Assembly: GCA_003661385.1 (NCBI GenBank)
Contig: QMWA01000023.1
Coordinates: forward strand, 1-14,564
From: Thermoproteota archaeon
GTDB taxonomy: Archaea > Korarchaeota > Korarchaeia > B14-G2
Length of the DNA stretch: 14,564 nt
Reading direction: 5' to 3'
The translations under genes and the position numbers were made by a program. Shown one piece after another: positions 5,410 through 11,730 of the stretch (position 1 is the first letter of the stretch; every line of letters begins with the position of its first letter). Under the pieces are notes generated by a model. That model ran no database searches. It was not told the origin of the DNA and worked only from the letters and a program-made list of their open reading frames with translations.

Positions 5410-5775
5410 CTACAGGAAGCCATATCGCCTAGCCCACTTGACATACCCCATTTTAGCTAGCTTGACCATGCTCTTGTTGAGCTTGTAGTCTACCCTGGCA
5501 GCCCCCTGAGGGCTCTTCATGAGCTCCCTGTACATCCTGTAGTATGTGTCAGCGTCCTTGGCCTGTGAGAGCACCTCTACTGCCTCTGGGGTGAAGTATA
5601 GGGTGAGGTCAGGGTCGCTAGCTGGCCCCTCATAGAACCTCGGTGCTCCCTGCTCCTTCCTCAGGTGGAACACGTAGTCTCCAACGTGGTACTCCCATGT
5701 TGCTCCATCCTTGAGGTGCTCCATCAGGCCTGGTAGGGACGGGAAGAACCTTCTGCAGAGCTCTCTTACGTCCAA
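5410..5775 (-). CDS. SCP2 sterol-transfer-like small protein
   Basis: This 121-residue protein resembles single-domain archaeal SCP2-like proteins, which form a hydrophobic cavity for lipids or acyl-CoA-like ligands. Visible features are WEYHVGDYVFHLRKE, an ASDPDLTLYFTPEAVEVL block (the D-x-x-[LV]-x-[FL] strand before a helix) and MKSPQGAARVDYKL, as in the SCP2 fold. There is no signal peptide. The start is TTG 5775: a strong GGAGGTG ribosome site (5781-5787) sits 5 nt upstream, inside the last codons of the aldehyde dehydrogenase gene, whose stop is 2 nt before. The reading frame extends to 6069, but that part is out-of-frame over the dehydrogenase. Tight coupling suggests it handles a hydrophobic substrate or product of the dehydrogenase; this is inference. 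Confidence 0.75.
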   Translation of the reverse strand: MDVRELCRRFFPSLPGLMEHLKDGATWEYHVGDYVFHLRKEQGAPRFYEGPASDPDLTLYFTPEAVEVLSQAKDADTYYRMYRELMKSPQGAARVDYKLNKSMVKLAKMGYVKWARRYGFL

Positions 5776-5777
5776 GG

Positions 5778-7193
5778 CTACACCTCCTCTCCTATGTGCA
5801 CGTACTTGACGTTTGTGAGCTCTTCTATCAGGTACTTTGCGCCACCTATCCCGCTGTCCTTCATGCCTCCAAAGGGAGCAAATATATCGTTGTAGAATGG
5901 GTCCTCGTTTATGACCACCATCCCGACATCTAGCCTGCTTGCTATGTACTCTGCTTCCTCTCTCGGGCCGTATATGCTTGCTCTCAGCCCGTAGCTGGTC
6001 GAGTTCGCTAGAGCTATGGCCTCCTCCATGCTGCTGAACTTGACGATGCTCCTCACTGGCGCAAAGCACTCCTCAACCCAGAGAAGGGGCTTCCTCTCGA
6101 GTGCGGTCTTCGAGTCGAGTTCTACCAGAGTGGGGTAGAAGAACGGGTCTTCACGCTTCCCTCCAACAAGCACTCTTCCACCTGAGGCTACTGTGTCTGA
6201 GAGCTGGTATTCAGCTAGGTCGAGCGCGAGCTTGTTGCCTATAGGCCCTATGTCTGTTGACTCGTCTCTGGGGTCGCCGACTTTCAGCTTGGAGATCTTA
6301 TCTACCATCAGCTCCCTTAGCTCACCGTATACTGACTCATGCACTATGTACCTCTTGCTGGACACGCACATCTGGCCTGCATTGGAGTAGCCTCCCTTGA
6401 CTGCTATGTCAGCTATCTTCTCTAGGTCTTCGACCTCCAGGATTATCATGGGGTCGTTTCCAGCTAGCTCTGGGACATACTTCTTCATTTTCCCAGCTAC
6501 TGTGAAGAACCCTCCCATGAAGCTCTGCTTGGTGCTCTCCAGGTACTTGCCCATCTCTATCATGAGCTCCTTACCGACGTGGCTGTTAGCGTAGATGACT
6601 ATGGCATCCACTAGAGGGCTGTGTATGAACTCCTTCGCAGCCTCAGCTCCAGGGTACACTGCGACCTCAACTATGTCTCCAGCTAGCTCAGCTAGCTTCA
6701 GAGTGGTGAGGGGAGCCCTCATCGAGGGCTTTAGCACCGTCGCGTTGCCTCCACCATACGATGAGAACAGGGAGTAGGCTGGGAGCACTAGCGGAGCGTT
6801 CCTCGGTGTTATGGCAGCTACAACCCCCATCGGAGTCCTGTACACGTAGCTCTTCCCGGAGAAGCTCTCTACCTCCTTTGGCCTCACCTTGTCTATCAGC
6901 GCATCGAAGAACATGGAGTTCCCGTAGGTCACTCTAGCCTCCCACCTGGCGTACTTCACTGGCTGCCCTGCTTCACGCACCATGAGGTCGACTATCTCCT
7001 CGCTCCTGTTCCTTATCTCTCGGCCTATCTCCCTCACCCTCTCTAGGCGGTCATCTAAGCCTGTTGAAGCTATCCTCTCCCTTGATTCGTGAGCTCTCCT
7101 GACCTTCTCACGGAAGGAGCTGAGGGAGTCCACCTCAAGCTCAGCTATGACCTCCCCAGTGTACTTGTCCCTTACCTCTACGGTCCTGCTCAC
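5778..7193 (-). CDS. NAD(P)-dependent aldehyde dehydrogenase superfamily protein
   Basis: The protein of about 471 residues oxidises an aldehyde to an acid with NAD(P); the substrate is not evident. Counting from GTG 7193, the catalytic set is Asn132 (ITPRN), Lys155 (VLKPS), Glu242 (ELAGND) and the nucleophile Cys276 (GQMCVSS). Two features are unusual. The cofactor-loop motif usually FTGS is YANS, and the segment between that loop and ELAGND is about 17 residues longer than in typical family members. The start GTG 7193 lies about 24 nt from the TATA element at 7214-7219, so the message is probably leaderless; GTG 7202 is the alternative. It heads the probable operon with the SCP2-like, RIO2 and DNPH1-like genes and diverges from the hdrA fusion gene. 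Confidence 0.92.
   Translation of the reverse strand: MSRTVEVRDKYTGEVIAELEVDSLSSFREKVRRAHESRERIASTGLDDRLERVREIGREIRNRSEEIVDLMVREAGQPVKYARWEARVTYGNSMFFDALIDKVRPKEVESFSGKSYVYRTPMGVVAAITPRNAPLVLPAYSLFSSYGGGNATVLKPSMRAPLTTLKLAELAGDIVEVAVYPGAEAAKEFIHSPLVDAIVIYANSHVGKELMIEMGKYLESTKQSFMGGFFTVAGKMKKYVPELAGNDPMIILEVEDLEKIADIAVKGGYSNAGQMCVSSKRYIVHESVYGELRELMVDKISKLKVGDPRDESTDIGPIGNKLALDLAEYQLSDTVASGGRVLVGGKREDPFFYPTLVELDSKTALERKPLLWVEECFAPVRSIVKFSSMEEAIALANSTSYGLRASIYGPREEAEYIASRLDVGMVVINEDPFYNDIFAPFGGMKDSGIGGAKYLIEELTNVKYVHIGEEV
5781..5787 (-). promoter_or_regulatory. Shine-Dalgarno site deciding the TTG start of the SCP2-like gene
   Basis: GGAGGTG on the minus strand lies 5 nt before TTG 5775 and within the final codons of the aldehyde dehydrogenase gene. 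It is among the best ribosome-site matches in the window and settles the otherwise ambiguous start. Confidence 0.7.
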
Positions 7194-7203
7194 GAGCGAC
7201 ACC

Positions 7204-7228
7204 TAGAGCAACATTTTAACGTAGAGCA
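7204..7228. promoter_or_regulatory. Divergent promoter: TATA element flanked by a 7-bp direct repeat
   Basis: TTTTAA (7214-7219) is the only TATA-like element between the divergent aldehyde dehydrogenase and hdrA fusion genes. TAGAGCA occurs at 7204-7210 and again at 7222-7228, one copy on each side. A centre-to-start distance of about 26 nt predicts starts near 7191 (leftward, at GTG 7193) and near 7242 (rightward, at TTG 7246/7252). The repeats would let one protein block access to both directions. The operator role is inference. Confidence 0.5.
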
Positions 7229-7245
7229 TGTCAGCTGCGTGAGGG

Positions 7246-9792
7246 TTGGAGTTGAGCTTTTTTAGAGTGCTCGCTCACTCAGCTAGAGAGAAGATAGTGA
7301 GGATGCTAGCTGAGGAAGGGCCCCTCACGTACAAGGAGATAATGGAGAAGACTGGGATAGCTGAGACTGGGAAGCTAAACTACCACCTTGAAAGGCTCTC
7401 TGGCTTCATCGAGAAGAGGGAAGGAGTCTATGTGCTGACTGACAGCGGCTGGAAGCTGTATGAGCTGATAAAGTACAGGGATGAGATCCTAGCTGGCAGG
7501 CCTCCAGCTAGGGAGAGGAGAAGGAGGCCTGTGCTCTCTAGGATTGGAGTCGTAGTGTGCATGTGTAATGGTGAGGTAAGCAAGGTTATCAGCCCAAGTA
7601 GGCTTGAGGAGGAGGCAGCTAAGCTTGAAGGCGTGGTCTCAACCATGGTGTTCCAGAACCTCTGCTCTCCTGTGAGCATAGAGAGGCTAGCTGGGTGGGT
7701 AAGGAGGCTGTTTATAAACAGGCTTGTGATAGCAGCGTGCTCACCGAAGCTGCATGCTGGAGTATACCAGCAGATAAAGGCGAAGGTTAAGGTGCCAGTT
7801 GAGGTAGTTAACATAGTTGAGCACTGCGCCTTCGTGCACCAGCCTGGCGACAAGGCCACAGAGAAGGCTGTAGCGATGCTAAAGGCTGCAGTCAAGTCGA
7901 CTGGAGTAGAGGCGTATATGCCTACCAAGGTCGTCGCTGTGAAGAAGGCTGTTGCAGTCATAGGAGGTGGAGTAAGCGGGATACTAGTCAGCCTGCAGCT
8001 AGCTAAGCTCGGGTTCAAGGTCTACCTGATAGAGAGAGCTCCAACCATCGGTGGGCTTCTAGCCAGGTGGAGCAGAGTGGGTAAGGGGGACTGCGCTAGC
8101 TGCCTGGTCTCAGAGCTCGCCTCAAGCCTAGTCCTCCATGAGAACGTTGAGATAATGACGAACACAGAAGTCGTAGGGATATCAGGGGAAGTCGGAAGCT
8201 ACGAGATAAGGCTTCTCAGAAAGCCCAGGTACGTTAACATCGAGAAGTGCACTGGATGCGGGACTTGCGCCTTAGTATGCCCTCGTGAGAGGCCTAGTGA
8301 GTTCGAGTTCGGGATGACCTCCAGGAAGGTGATCCAGATACCGTACTCCACAGCATACCCTTATGCGCCTTTCATCTCACCAGAGGACATAGAGCTGTGC
8401 CTGAGCTGCCGCAAGTGCGAGGAGACCTGCCCAGCTAACGCAATAGACCTCACCATGAAGGAGAAAGAGGACAAGATCTCCGTCGGAGCTGTAGTCTTAG
8501 CTACAGGAGGGGAGCTCTATAGCGGGCCTCTCCTCGAGAAGTATGGGTACACACTCCACGAGGACATAATAACCAGCGCAGAGTTCGAGAGAATGCTCTC
8601 CCTCGACGGGCCAACCAGGGGGGAGATAATTAAGCCGTCTAGTGGGGAGAAGCCTCTCAGCATAGGCATACTGCAGTGCATGACTAGCAAGGGGTGCTCA
8701 AGGTACTGCTGTAGCGTAGCAGCTAAGTACCTGAGGGTCATCAGGGAGAAGCTCCCAGATGCAATAGTCCACATAATATTCGACGAGAACAACATACCTA
8801 GAGACAGCGTGATACCAACTGAAATCTGGGATAGCGTGATAATAGGGAGGGGGGTGAGGATAAGAACTGAGAACGGCAGGATAATTGTAGAGATAGGCAG
8901 CAAGAGGGTGGAGGTTGACCTGCTGATCCTCAACCTAGGCCTGGATCCCCCATCAAAGCTCAGAGAGCTGCACTACATGTTGGAGTTCGCAGTAGATGAA
9001 AGGGGGTTCCTGGACCCTAGGTCGCTGCCGTACGGCTTCTTCGCATGCGGGGCTGTTACTGGGCCGAAGAGCTACGAGGAGCTCGTCTATGAGAGCTTAG
9101 CTACAGCCTCTGAGGTAGCCCTGATACTCTCCAGAGACAAGCTTGAGGTCGAGGAGGCTAAGGTCGTAGTAGACACAGAGCTATGTGGGGGGTGTGGGCT
9201 ATGTGAAGCTGTCTGCCCGTTTAACGCAGTGAGCAGGGGGGACACAGGGGTGTATGTCGACCCATTCCAGTGCAAGGGGTGTGGCGCCTGCCTTCCAGCA
9301 TGCCCAACTGGAGCACTGAAGTTCCACCAGCCTTCTGGGAAGATCCTCCAGATGGTTAAGGCTCTCTCAACCTATGATGGTAAGCCCAAGATACTGGCGT
9401 TCTGCTGCAGTGCATGTGGGTACCCGGCTGCTGACAACGCTGGGCTTAGGAGGCTGAAGTACAACCCAAACACCTTTGTACTAGAGGTCACGTGCACTGG
9501 GAGGATAGACTCGGAGTTCATACTTGAGGCTCTTAAGAGGGGGTTTGATGGGGTGATGATATTTGGCTGTAGGCTGGGATCCTGCAAGTACATCGACGGG
9601 ATTGCTAAGGCGAAGAGCAGGGTGGAGAAGCTCAGAGACCTCTTAGGTGAAGCCATGGGGGGTAGGGTGAGGCTTGTAGAGATATCAGCCATAGAGGGGG
9701 AGAGGTTTGCGCGGGAGGTTGACAGCTTCTATAGGGAGCTAGCTGGGTGTGAGAGTGGAGTACGGGGAAAGGTGGGCGGTAATCCAGCTTAG
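7246..9792 (+). CDS. Fusion of winged-helix DNA-binding domain, HdrA flavoprotein and MvhD domain
   Basis: HdrA is the FAD and iron-sulfur hub of heterodisulfide-reductase-type electron bifurcation, and MvhD links it to a [NiFe] hydrogenase. Residues 1-85 form an ArsR-like winged helix (HSAREKIVRMLAEEGPLTY, then GKLNYHLERL and a VYVLTDSG wing). An Arg-rich linker (90-94) follows. The HdrA part starts near 99 with GVVVCMCNGE and has the FAD motif GGGVSG (240-245), the Cys pair DCASC (283/286), two 4Fe-4S motifs at 335-345 and 385-395, and two more at 647-657 and 676-686. Residues about 715-832 are MvhD-like, with CCSAC (720-724), Cys750, and Cys775/Cys780 in GCRLGSC. TTG 7246 or TTG 7252 is the start; GAGGG at 7241-7245 suits 7252. 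The 3' end overlaps the hydrogenase small subunit by 44 nt. HdrB and HdrC are not in the window, so the second electron acceptor is unknown. Confidence 0.93.
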   Translation: MELSFFRVLAHSAREKIVRMLAEEGPLTYKEIMEKTGIAETGKLNYHLERLSGFIEKREGVYVLTDSGWKLYELIKYRDEILAGRPPARERRRRPVLSRIGVVVCMCNGEVSKVISPSRLEEEAAKLEGVVSTMVFQNLCSPVSIERLAGWVRRLFINRLVIAACSPKLHAGVYQQIKAKVKVPVEVVNIVEHCAFVHQPGDKATEKAVAMLKAAVKSTGVEAYMPTKVVAVKKAVAVIGGGVSGILVSLQLAKLGFKVYLIERAPTIGGLLARWSRVGKGDCASCLVSELASSLVLHENVEIMTNTEVVGISGEVGSYEIRLLRKPRYVNIEKCTGCGTCALVCPRERPSEFEFGMTSRKVIQIPYSTAYPYAPFISPEDIELCLSCRKCEETCPANAIDLTMKEKEDKISVGAVVLATGGELYSGPLLEKYGYTLHEDIITSAEFERMLSLDGPTRGEIIKPSSGEKPLSIGILQCMTSKGCSRYCCSVAAKYLRVIREKLPDAIVHIIFDENNIPRDSVIPTEIWDSVIIGRGVRIRTENGRIIVEIGSKRVEVDLLILNLGLDPPSKLRELHYMLEFAVDERGFLDPRSLPYGFFACGAVTGPKSYEELVYESLATASEVALILSRDKLEVEEAKVVVDTELCGGCGLCEAVCPFNAVSRGDTGVYVDPFQCKGCGACLPACPTGALKFHQPSGKILQMVKALSTYDGKPKILAFCCSACGYPAADNAGLRRLKYNPNTFVLEVTCTGRIDSEFILEALKRGFDGVMIFGCRLGSCKYIDGIAKAKSRVEKLRDLLGEAMGGRVRLVEISAIEGERFAREVDSFYRELAGCESGVRGKVGGNPA

Positions 9793-10495
9793 CGGGTGCA
9801 GCGGGTGCCCTTCAGCTGTGTTCTCGTCGCCAGTCCTGCAAGACCTCGTGTACTCCATGCCAGTAGCCTACTTCCCGATGGTAACTGACAGCCAGAGGGT
9901 TCTGTCAGCAGACATCGCGGTGGTGTCAGGAGCAGTCTGCAAGAGAGCAGAGGAGGAGCTCCTCAAGAGAGTCAGGGAAAGCTGCAGCAAGCTAGTTGCC
10001 CTAGGGACTTGCGCGGTGTATGGGGGGGTAGTCAGCAGGGAGGTAGAGAGCGCTAAGGCTGTTCCTGAGGTCGTGGAGGTAGACCAAGTGATACCAGGAT
10101 GCCCTCCGCCTGAGAAGCTTGTTGGGGAGTTCCTGATAGCTGAGGTAAGTGGAGGAGAGTTCAGGCTGCCAAGCTACAACGTGTGCAAGGAGTGCCCGAG
10201 AGCCCCGCTTAGGAGGAAGCCCCCCATCAGGGTCAGGTACCTGGAGCCTCCTGAGGAGCTTCAAGCTAAGGCCTGTTTTCTGGACCACGAGACCCTGTGC
10301 CTCGGGCCAGTTACTAGAGGAGGATGTGGCGCCGTCTGCATTGAGCTCGGTGTGCCCTGCCACGGCTGCCTTGGGCCGCCAGCCAAGAGCTATACCTCAC
10401 AGCTGGCAAACTTCCTCTCCATACTCGACATCCAGCTAGAGAAGAGCAAACTGATGCAGTTTGTCTCGAGGTACATTAGGGTTGGTGTCCTATGA
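9749..10495 (+). CDS. [NiFe] hydrogenase small subunit, group 3 (MvhG-like)
   Basis: The 248-residue cytosolic subunit carries three iron-sulfur clusters that pass electrons from the NiFe site, here presumably to the MvhD domain of the upstream fusion protein. The proximal-cluster ligands are Cys17 and Cys20 (SGCSGC), Cys88 (GTCAVYGG) and Cys118 (PGCPPP). The C-terminal ferredoxin-like part has Cys146/149 and the block LCLGPVTRGGCGAVC...VPCHGCLGP (Cys184 to 207), typical of group 3 enzymes. There is no Tat signal. The start is GTG 9749 (GTG 9755 is possible) with GGGAG about 10 nt upstream inside the fusion gene, giving a 44-nt overlap. It overlaps the large subunit gene by an ATGA, so the three proteins are probably made together. 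Confidence 0.92.
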   Translation: MRVEYGERWAVIQLSGCSGCPSAVFSSPVLQDLVYSMPVAYFPMVTDSQRVLSADIAVVSGAVCKRAEEELLKRVRESCSKLVALGTCAVYGGVVSREVESAKAVPEVVEVDQVIPGCPPPEKLVGEFLIAEVSGGEFRLPSYNVCKECPRAPLRRKPPIRVRYLEPPEELQAKACFLDHETLCLGPVTRGGCGAVCIELGVPCHGCLGPPAKSYTSQLANFLSILDIQLEKSKLMQFVSRYIRVGVL

Positions 10496-11730
10496 GCGTA
10501 AGGATTGTTAGAGTGCTCACTAGAGTAGAGTCTCCTGCCGAAGTCGTGTTCCATGTGCGTGGGGAGGAAGTCGAGAGGGTGGAGCTTAAGCCGATGCACT
10601 GTAGGCGTGTAGAGCATGCGCTAGCTGGGCTGCCAGCTGAAGCTGTGCCAGCTTACGTGTCCAGGATCTGTGGGCTCTGCCCGATAGCACATCAGATAGC
10701 GTCATCGCATGCGATCGAGGCCGCGCTCGGGCTGGAGAGGCCACCTGAAGCAGCTCTTGCAGTGAGGAAGCTTGCCTTGCTGGCTGAGCACATCAAGAGC
10801 CATACCCTGCACTTGTTCCTGCATGCGCTGCCTGAGCTCTTCTCATACGCCTACAACTCGCCTCAAGATGTGTTCACGCTATCTAAGGCTGAGAGAGAAT
10901 ACCCGAAGAGGATGGGAGCTCTGATAGCGTTCAGCGACAGGGTTCTAGCAGAGCTAGGTGGTAGGGGAGTGATCCCGATGATCTCGGCAGCTGGAGGGGT
11001 CTACAGCAGGCTCACAGCAGCTTCAAGAGATAAGATCGAGAAGAGGCTTAAGCAAGCTAAGGCTGCAGTAGACTGGGTTAGAGACCTCCTGTACAGCAGG
11101 AGGCTTCTAGACAAGGCCATGGTGGACAAGGAGCTCTATGACCTCCCTGAGCGCATCAAGCTCGTCACATCAGCTAGCAGGGAGGAGCTTTGGGGTGAAG
11201 TTAAGGTGTACGCAGCTGAACAGGAGCTGAAGCTCATACCGGCGGTAAGCCTGCTGAGTGAGGACTACAGCAGAGAAGCTCTTCTGACAGGGCCTGCTGC
11301 CCGGTACCTTGCTAGAGGAGGAAGCATACATGGGGTCATGAACTTGCTGAGCCACATCAGGATAAGGCTGGATGAGGTTAAGGCGTGTATAGACGCTGTT
11401 GAGAAGGCTTTGAACGAGCCTAGGCTCTACCATGGCGTACTGAGGGAGAGGCTTAAGGTGTCAGACTCTCAGGAAGCTGCTGCACTAGAGGCGCCTAGAG
11501 GAACTCTAGTCCACTACTACAGGATCAAGAGGGGGGCTATAGCAGAGAGCAGAATACTGACTCCAACTATGATAAACATGAGCACCATGATCATGGTAGC
11601 TAATAGGCTTGTGGAGCTGGCGAGCGACCTAGCTTTCCCAAGGGACTACATTATAGGCAAGACTATGGCAGCCATCAGGCTGTTTGACCCTTGCATCTCG
11701 TGCCTCTACCACACGGTTGAGCAGCTGTAG
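10492..11730 (+). CDS. [NiFe] hydrogenase large (catalytic) subunit, group 3-like
   Basis: The 412-residue subunit holds the NiFe active site for H2 uptake or evolution. Both ligand motifs are intact: RICGLCPIAH (Cys60, Cys63, His67) and DPCISCLYH (Cys401, Cys404, His407). It is shorter than methanogen MvhA. Two details are odd. The usual N-terminal RVEGHA is RVESPA, keeping the Glu but losing Gly-His, and only five residues (TVEQL) follow the final motif His, whereas protease-processed subunits usually carry a longer tail. It overlaps the small subunit by 4 nt, with GGTG upstream of ATG 10492. No maturation (hyp) or endopeptidase gene is present in the window. It ends 3 nt before the stop of the convergent surface protein gene. 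Confidence 0.93.
   Translation: MSVRIVRVLTRVESPAEVVFHVRGEEVERVELKPMHCRRVEHALAGLPAEAVPAYVSRICGLCPIAHQIASSHAIEAALGLERPPEAALAVRKLALLAEHIKSHTLHLFLHALPELFSYAYNSPQDVFTLSKAEREYPKRMGALIAFSDRVLAELGGRGVIPMISAAGGVYSRLTAASRDKIEKRLKQAKAAVDWVRDLLYSRRLLDKAMVDKELYDLPERIKLVTSASREELWGEVKVYAAEQELKLIPAVSLLSEDYSREALLTGPAARYLARGGSIHGVMNLLSHIRIRLDEVKACIDAVEKALNEPRLYHGVLRERLKVSDSQEAAALEAPRGTLVHYYRIKRGAIAESRILTPTMINMSTMIMVANRLVELASDLAFPRDYIIGKTMAAIRLFDPCISCLYHTVEQL

Follow-up and report, generated by a model that had tools for sequence, protein, structure and literature searches.

The window (the whole stretch of DNA analysed, 14,564 nucleotides in length) contains a gene in which a winged-helix domain is fused to a complete HdrA–MvhD electron-transfer protein, followed by overlapping genes for the two subunits of a [NiFe] hydrogenase. 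This fusion was confirmed to be real and conserved. Judged from gene content, conserved residues and promoter sequences, its product probably (a likelihood of about 60%) serves both as the HdrA–MvhD electron-transfer subunit of the hydrogenase and as a one-component regulator of its own operon, following a logic like that of PutA. The positions of the features concerned are listed in Table 1.

Table 1. Features of the fusion operon and its surroundings in the window.
Feature	Position	Strand	Basis or remark
Aldehyde dehydrogenase gene, divergent, possible target	5778..7202	-	Pfam; target role inferred
Divergent promoter region	7203..7251		Operator of the relatives absent; weak inverted repeat 7219-7240; half-site at 7228
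wHTH-HdrA-MvhD fusion gene	7246..9792	+	Frame from TTG 7246; TTG 7252 likelier start (alignment with relatives)
Winged-helix DNA-binding domain (predicted), residues 3-77	7252..7476	+	PF24038, 54.5-59.4 bits; AlphaFold2 model; MarR/RosR fold matches
Recognition helix, residues 41-50 (TGKLNYHLER)	7366..7395	+	Model; near-invariant among 54 relatives
Linker, Arg-rich in window only	7477..7539	+	Alignment with relatives
HdrA N-terminal Fe-S domain (Cys 105, 107, 140, 165, 194)	7540..7929	+	Sequence/structure alignment
FAD-binding GGGVSG motif	7963..7980	+	Pfam; alignment
Ferredoxin insert, two CxxCxxCxxxC motifs	8248..8430	+	Pfam; present in all 54 relatives
Glu448, equivalent of E356 (flavin bifurcation)	8587..8589	+	54/54
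Lys494, equivalent of K409 (flavin bifurcation)	8725..8727	+	54/54
C-terminal ferredoxin domain, two cluster motifs	9184..9303	+	Pfam; alignment
MvhD (FlpD) domain	9385..9741	+	PF02662, 124 bits
MvhG/VhuG-like hydrogenase small subunit	9749..10495	+	Pfam, NCBIfam, Cys alignment; overlaps fusion gene
MvhA-like [NiFe] large subunit, ends 5 residues past DPCISCLYH	10492..11730	+	Pfam, NCBIfam, motifs; overlaps small-subunit gene
L1 motif RICGLCPIAH (NiFe ligands)	10663..10692	+	Motif alignment
L2 motif CISCLYH (NiFe ligands)	11692..11712	+	Motif alignment

The fusion gene is a single uninterrupted frame encoding 848 amino acids when counted from TTG 7246. The TTG at 7252, which sits six bases past a GAGGG, appears to be the likelier start, giving a product of 846 amino acids, because the start methionine of the relatives mostly lies opposite residue 3 of the window protein (42 of 50 letters in the alignment). 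Analysis of the window protein with Pfam identified four ferredoxin motifs (residues 335-345, 385-395, 647-657, and 676-686), the FAD Rossmann motif and a FlpD/MvhD domain (residues 716-832), and the NCBIfam model for HdrA2 (NF040770) matched residues 99-833 with an E-value of 6e-176, at a score of 586.8 bits which misses the curated cut-off of 1100 bits. The order of parts is that of HdrA2-type proteins, namely N-terminal Fe-S domain, FAD domain, ferredoxin insert, C-terminal ferredoxin domain and fused MvhD, and solved HdrA chains align to the window protein only from residue 90-99 onward. The earlier note on this DNA, made from the letters alone, had read the gene as one frame joining a winged helix, a full HdrA with FAD and four ferredoxin-type cluster motifs, and MvhD, and in all of this it agrees with Pfam and NCBIfam.

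That note had also taken an Arg-rich linker as a feature of the fusion, which does not hold for the family, the linker of the relatives being acidic or neutral (EDIEYLDKxGSEINR). In the window the linker is encoded by a purine-rich stretch (7477-7533) that ends in a GGAGG before GTG 7531 and resembles a ribosome-binding site. It is conceivable, at quite long odds, that translation also begins internally, at the GTG 7531 that follows the purine-rich AGGGAGAGGAGAAGGAGG, yielding in the window a plain HdrA–MvhD beside the fusion, with the Arg-rich linker as a by-product of the ribosome-binding site. The likeness of the sequence ahead of this GTG to a Shine-Dalgarno site and the restriction of the Arg-rich linker to the window agree with such a start, but the GGAGG is just three bases from the GTG, AGG and AGA are ordinary arginine codons, and no comparable Arg-rich stretch is present in the relatives.

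With a 230-residue query the fusion was picked up in three genera of a second archaeal phylum, and a four-row profile run over the 227 genomes of that phylum found it in eight families. In total 57 further fusion loci were retrieved, all from the second phylum and from other assemblies. The architecture, of which the earlier note knew no other case while calling for a search for its recurrence, is thus a recurring one. The artificial joining of two genes in sequencing or assembly was also considered; no point in support of it was found and its probability is negligible, because the same junction recurs in these 57 loci of other assemblies and eight families. When the HdrA part alone was compared to that of the window, the full-length fusions scored 558-644 bits against 435 for the best non-fused HdrA, and in a 39-row HdrA tree the fusions formed one clade (support 100/100) in which the window grouped with family f144 (99/98). 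From the score gap and the single clade it follows that the fusion and this HdrA subtype travel together.

Within the window's own phylum the fusion was found only in the window's genome (29 genomes searched), and no fusion was found in four other archaeal phyla (23, 1, 28, and 115 genomes), sets which held no positive control. The sole match from a contig scan with the full protein was an MvhD-like fragment of a deltaproteobacterium, which is uninformative. The second phylum probably corresponds to Asgardarchaeota, because a RagA-type GTPase gene lies beside eight of the fusion loci and because the phylum has many hdrA copies, as has been reported for Loki- and Thorarchaeota (PMC11237513). 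The genome of the window itself holds many more copies or fragments of HdrA or HdrA–MvhD (contigs C16, C21, C43, C77, C193, C178, C188, C148, and C165), none of which showed a winged helix in the searches made.

The N-terminal domain of the window protein was matched by Pfam to DUF7347 (PF24038; residues 5-75, 54.5 bits against a cut-off of 27.6, rising to 59.4 bits when the N-terminal piece was scanned alone) and also to HTH_20. A single-sequence AlphaFold2 model of residues 1-102 is a textbook winged helix, with helices at 13-24, 29-36, and 41-50, a wing at 55-64, a further helix at 66-76 and a mean pLDDT above 90 for residues 21-70. Foldseek with this model gave no match below an E-value of 0.001; with VIA-align, structures of MarR and RosR, also in complex with DNA, matched it at Z of about 10 (for example 5h3r, Z 10.1, 1.6 A over 70 residues). 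Among 54 aligned fusions the mean column entropy is 0.99 bits for the winged helix, 1.15 for the HdrA N-terminal domain and 1.12 for MvhD, so that constraint on the winged helix is no weaker than on the HdrA N-terminal domain, and the recognition helix T-G-Q-L-N-F-H-L-K-K is near-invariant.

In other archaea, winged helices of the PF24038 type are fused to a receiver with an RDD-like membrane segment, to an RDD-like segment alone, or to other long proteins (L203 858-2063 on the minus strand, L202 2130-4421 on the minus strand, L204 11-1627, and L209 811-2118). The variety of these fusion partners suggests that the family is a mobile, reusable DNA-binding or regulatory module. Long-frame matches to the winged helix in another phylum turned out to be other regulators and not HdrA.

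A genus-wise alignment of the upstream regions first revealed a recurring palindrome of 18 bases. For each of 58 fusion genes, the preceding 330 bases were then scanned for TGAYAA-Nk-TTRTCA, with the gap k varied over all values between 0 and 20. A gap of six bases gave a perfect site in 32 of the 58 regions and a site with at most one mismatch in 41, counts made on the data that revealed the motif and inflated by kinship within genera. The contrast between gaps and the dinucleotide shuffles serve as controls and not as an independent sample: at no other gap did more than one locus have a perfect site or more than ten a site within one mismatch, and the shuffles gave a mean of 0.64 loci and a maximum of 2, against 41/58 observed.

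The placement of the sites before other leading genes provides independent tests. At the seven loci with an frhB-like gene ahead of the fusion, the sites lie before the frhB-like gene, 1,300-1,510 bases upstream of the fusion, and at L124, L125, and L128 there are sites at about -4,080, ahead of a separately placed mtdB-like operon. Two loci (L165 and L166) have one-mismatch sites before a downstream mtdB-like copy. When the 330-base scan and the displaced sites are combined, the operon promoter of 48 of the 57 relatives has a site. The fusion promoter is the sole genome-wide match of TTGAYAAN6TTRTCAW in three genomes (G454, G457, and G466), the other genomes having a handful of additional matches, a number similar to that in genomes lacking the fusion, and in a genome-wide regulon search most extra matches fell inside frames or looked random. 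The putative regulator therefore looks local. Orthologous copies of the palindrome were also seen inside the start of an FrhB-like frame (G243:C44:55025 at L231 and G484:C1:60715 at L215), possibly a third target if that frame uses a later start codon.

The operator is absent from the upstream regions of family f156 and of two single loci (L137 and L167), and family f151 has sites with two mismatches. In the window, the promoter holds no copy within three mismatches and the genome no perfect copy. The region 7203-7245, which the earlier note had picked for a binding test, therefore lacks the operator of the relatives, and DNA binding at the window promoter rests on homology because the palindrome is missing there. 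These absences are counted against the preferred reading of the fusion as a regulator.

They bear as well on another explanation, judged unlikely, in which the winged helix serves a structural purpose or binds proteins, and an unrelated regulator that happens to control these operons acts at the palindrome. Winged helices can also mediate protein contacts, the link between domain and site rests on co-occurrence, and the window and family f156 have the domain without the site. Against this, however, the face of the recognition helix is near-invariant, the nearest structural matches are DNA-binding regulators, the same domain family occurs elsewhere on receiver and membrane domains, and the site follows the fusion operon across families, in three genomes being found nowhere else.

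The gene order of the operon, with wHTH-HdrA-MvhD followed by MvhG and MvhA (F-G-A), is the same in all 52 loci that have a complete fusion gene and room for neighbours, the window included. The first two genes overlap in 43 of these, by a median of 11 bases. All complete large subunits keep the NiFe-ligating cysteines at every position with known bases, and the Fe-S cysteines of the small subunit are kept in 49-52 of the 52. The best NCBIfam models for the hydrogenase subunits are VhuG, ShyA, and FrhA. In the three large subunits of family f156 (L161, L162, and L163) the motifs read SKxCGFC...DPCISCSSV, with the NiFe cysteines kept and both the conserved arginine before L1 and the conserved histidine after L2 altered.

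The L2 motif is the exact C-terminal end of 38 of 50 large subunits and is followed by 5-11 residues in the other 12 (5 in the window), compared with 18-28 in ordinary archaeal paralogues of the large subunit. H2-sensing hydrogenases naturally have no C-terminal extension of the large subunit, and the same is true of groups 4c, 4e, and 4g (PMC7294309), for which reason a missing maturation peptide is not specific to sensors. Genes for HdrB or HdrC are absent from the F-G-A operon of the window and its relatives, and a gene for an HdrC-HdrB-like protein lies 5-6 kb away in four relatives. The FAD motif and the equivalents of E356 and K409 are kept in all 54 fusions, a result in agreement with either a working enzyme or a sensor. 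Cysteines 478, 484, 488, and 489 are retained together only in the window and in families f156 and f144.

A gene family with the N-terminal domain of methylene-H4MPT dehydrogenase (PF09176, MtdB-like) is found near the fusion in 39 loci, divergent in all of them except the three of family f144. In family f156 the neighbours are the formylmethanofuran dehydrogenase FwdB (615 bits, cut-off 328) and an FwdD-like protein, and further loci have FrhB-like and HdrA genes as neighbours. In the relatives, the neighbours share a tie to C1 and electron metabolism, specifically to the methyl branch of the Wood-Ljungdahl pathway. Conserved sequences with no Pfam match (VLELKPIKNKK..., ESEFPIDWW...) precede or join the MtdB-like domain at two loci (L071 5544-6923 and L155 7710-10057) and probably belong to the regulon. 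In the window, a frame on the minus strand (5410-6069) with no Pfam match overlaps the aldehyde dehydrogenase gene, and its second half gives the impression, and only that, of a small SCP2-type domain. A histidine-kinase-like gene (PF02518) is found near the operon in five loci (among them L120, 1559-2620 on the minus strand) and might add a second signalling route.

Under the preferred reading, H2 would be oxidised at the NiFe site of MvhA and the electrons would pass through the Fe-S clusters of MvhG to the MvhD domain and on to the ferredoxin clusters and FAD of HdrA. The reduction state of this chain would alter the N-terminal winged helices, which in an HdrA dimer would be paired on the palindromic operator (TGAYAA-N6-TTRTCA in the relatives). 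With this operator placed in the promoters of the fusion operon and of the neighbouring methyl-branch genes, the supply of H2 or redox state would set the expression of these genes, whether up or down. In its strictest form, the protein would be a dedicated one-component H2 sensor, in which a [NiFe] hydrogenase signals to a DNA-bound flavin/Fe-S transcription factor with neither kinase nor second messenger; this is held tentatively, at somewhat less than an even chance.

The nearest competing explanation, to which we give close to an even chance, is a trigger enzyme like PutA, that is, a working hydrogenase/ferredoxin oxidoreductase that represses its own operon when idle and is freed from DNA by turnover of its substrate and not by H2 sensing as such. 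The conservation of every catalytic and flavin-bifurcation residue is in keeping with this, as are the metabolic neighbours (MtdB-like PF09176, FrhB, FwdB, and FwdD), and the trifunctional PutA is known as an autogenous flavin-dependent repressor (PMC5293562). Yet the F-G-A operon has neither HdrBC nor another obvious electron-accepting partner, the large subunits are without the maturation peptide, and the four cysteines beside the flavin lysine are lost in most fusions. The trigger enzyme and the sensor overlap, both needing DNA binding and differing in whether turnover matters to the cell, so the chances given to them are not exclusive. The sensor is favoured because the recognition helix is conserved, the relatives have the operator, the hydrogenase subunits are intact and the large subunits have no maturation peptide. 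The suggestion of the earlier note that the protein is a direct redox or hydrogen sensor controlling transcription thus stands as the best reading of the fusion, its response to H2 or redox state being the part that we infer.

No description of an HdrA fused to a helix-turn-helix or winged helix, or of an archaeal regulatory hydrogenase of such a kind, was found in the open-licence literature, and a recent survey of HdrA lists MvhD and GltD fusions with DNA-binding absent from its text (PMC12054007). One-component regulators, trigger enzymes and H2 sensors are already known; what is new is a hydrogenase joined to DNA by way of HdrA. As far as the literature searches show, this would be the first transcription factor built on an electron-bifurcating HdrA scaffold and, if the reading is true, the first one-component H2-responsive regulator of transcription, found widely among what are probably Asgard archaea and linked to their Wood-Ljungdahl genes. 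Hydrogen exchange is central to ideas on the partnerships of Asgard archaea and the origin of eukaryotes, and no direct H2 sensor in these archaea was found described in the open-licence literature. The fusion family offers a named candidate with a likely operator and likely targets, which opens the question of H2 sensing in Asgard archaea to tests on purified protein with short DNA.

Among known systems, the fusion shares with HdrA2, or type Ia HdrA (e.g., Methanosarcina HdrA2B2C2), the order of domains over residues 99-833, the cysteine motifs, the equivalents of E356 and K409, and the C-terminal MvhD, but differs from it in the N-terminal winged helix, the operon without HdrBC, the separate clade and the lower score (586.8 against 1100 bits). 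With the MvhADG-HdrABC complex of methanogens (group 3c) it has in common the MvhA, MvhG, and MvhD modules encoded with HdrA and the kept NiFe and Fe-S ligands, whereas here HdrBC is missing from the operon, the C-terminal peptide of the large subunit is absent or short, and a putative DNA-binding domain has been added. The H2-sensing regulatory hydrogenases of groups 2b and 2d (HoxBC/HupUV) resemble it in a large subunit without C-terminal extension (PMC7294309) and in the proposed H2-dependent control of genes. These sensors, however, act through a kinase and response regulator and have group 2 sequences, whereas the signal of the fusion would go straight to DNA, its hydrogenase subunits fall with group 3 models and a kinase-like gene is near only five relatives.

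PutA likewise bears its DNA-binding domain at the N-terminus of a flavin redox enzyme and, as proposed for the fusion, regulates its own genes, in many cases through a divergent promoter (PMC5293562). A putative operator in the gene's own promoter, as in PutA, is found in the relatives and not in the window, and the two proteins are not homologous, PutA joining a ribbon-helix-helix to proline dehydrogenase and the fusion a winged helix to HdrA and hydrogenase. The closest likeness to the N-terminal domain itself is to the archaeal winged-helix regulators of the PF24038/HTH_20 type, the family cut-off of which it exceeds, with the difference that the sensor part here would be a hydrogenase-coupled Fe-S flavoprotein.
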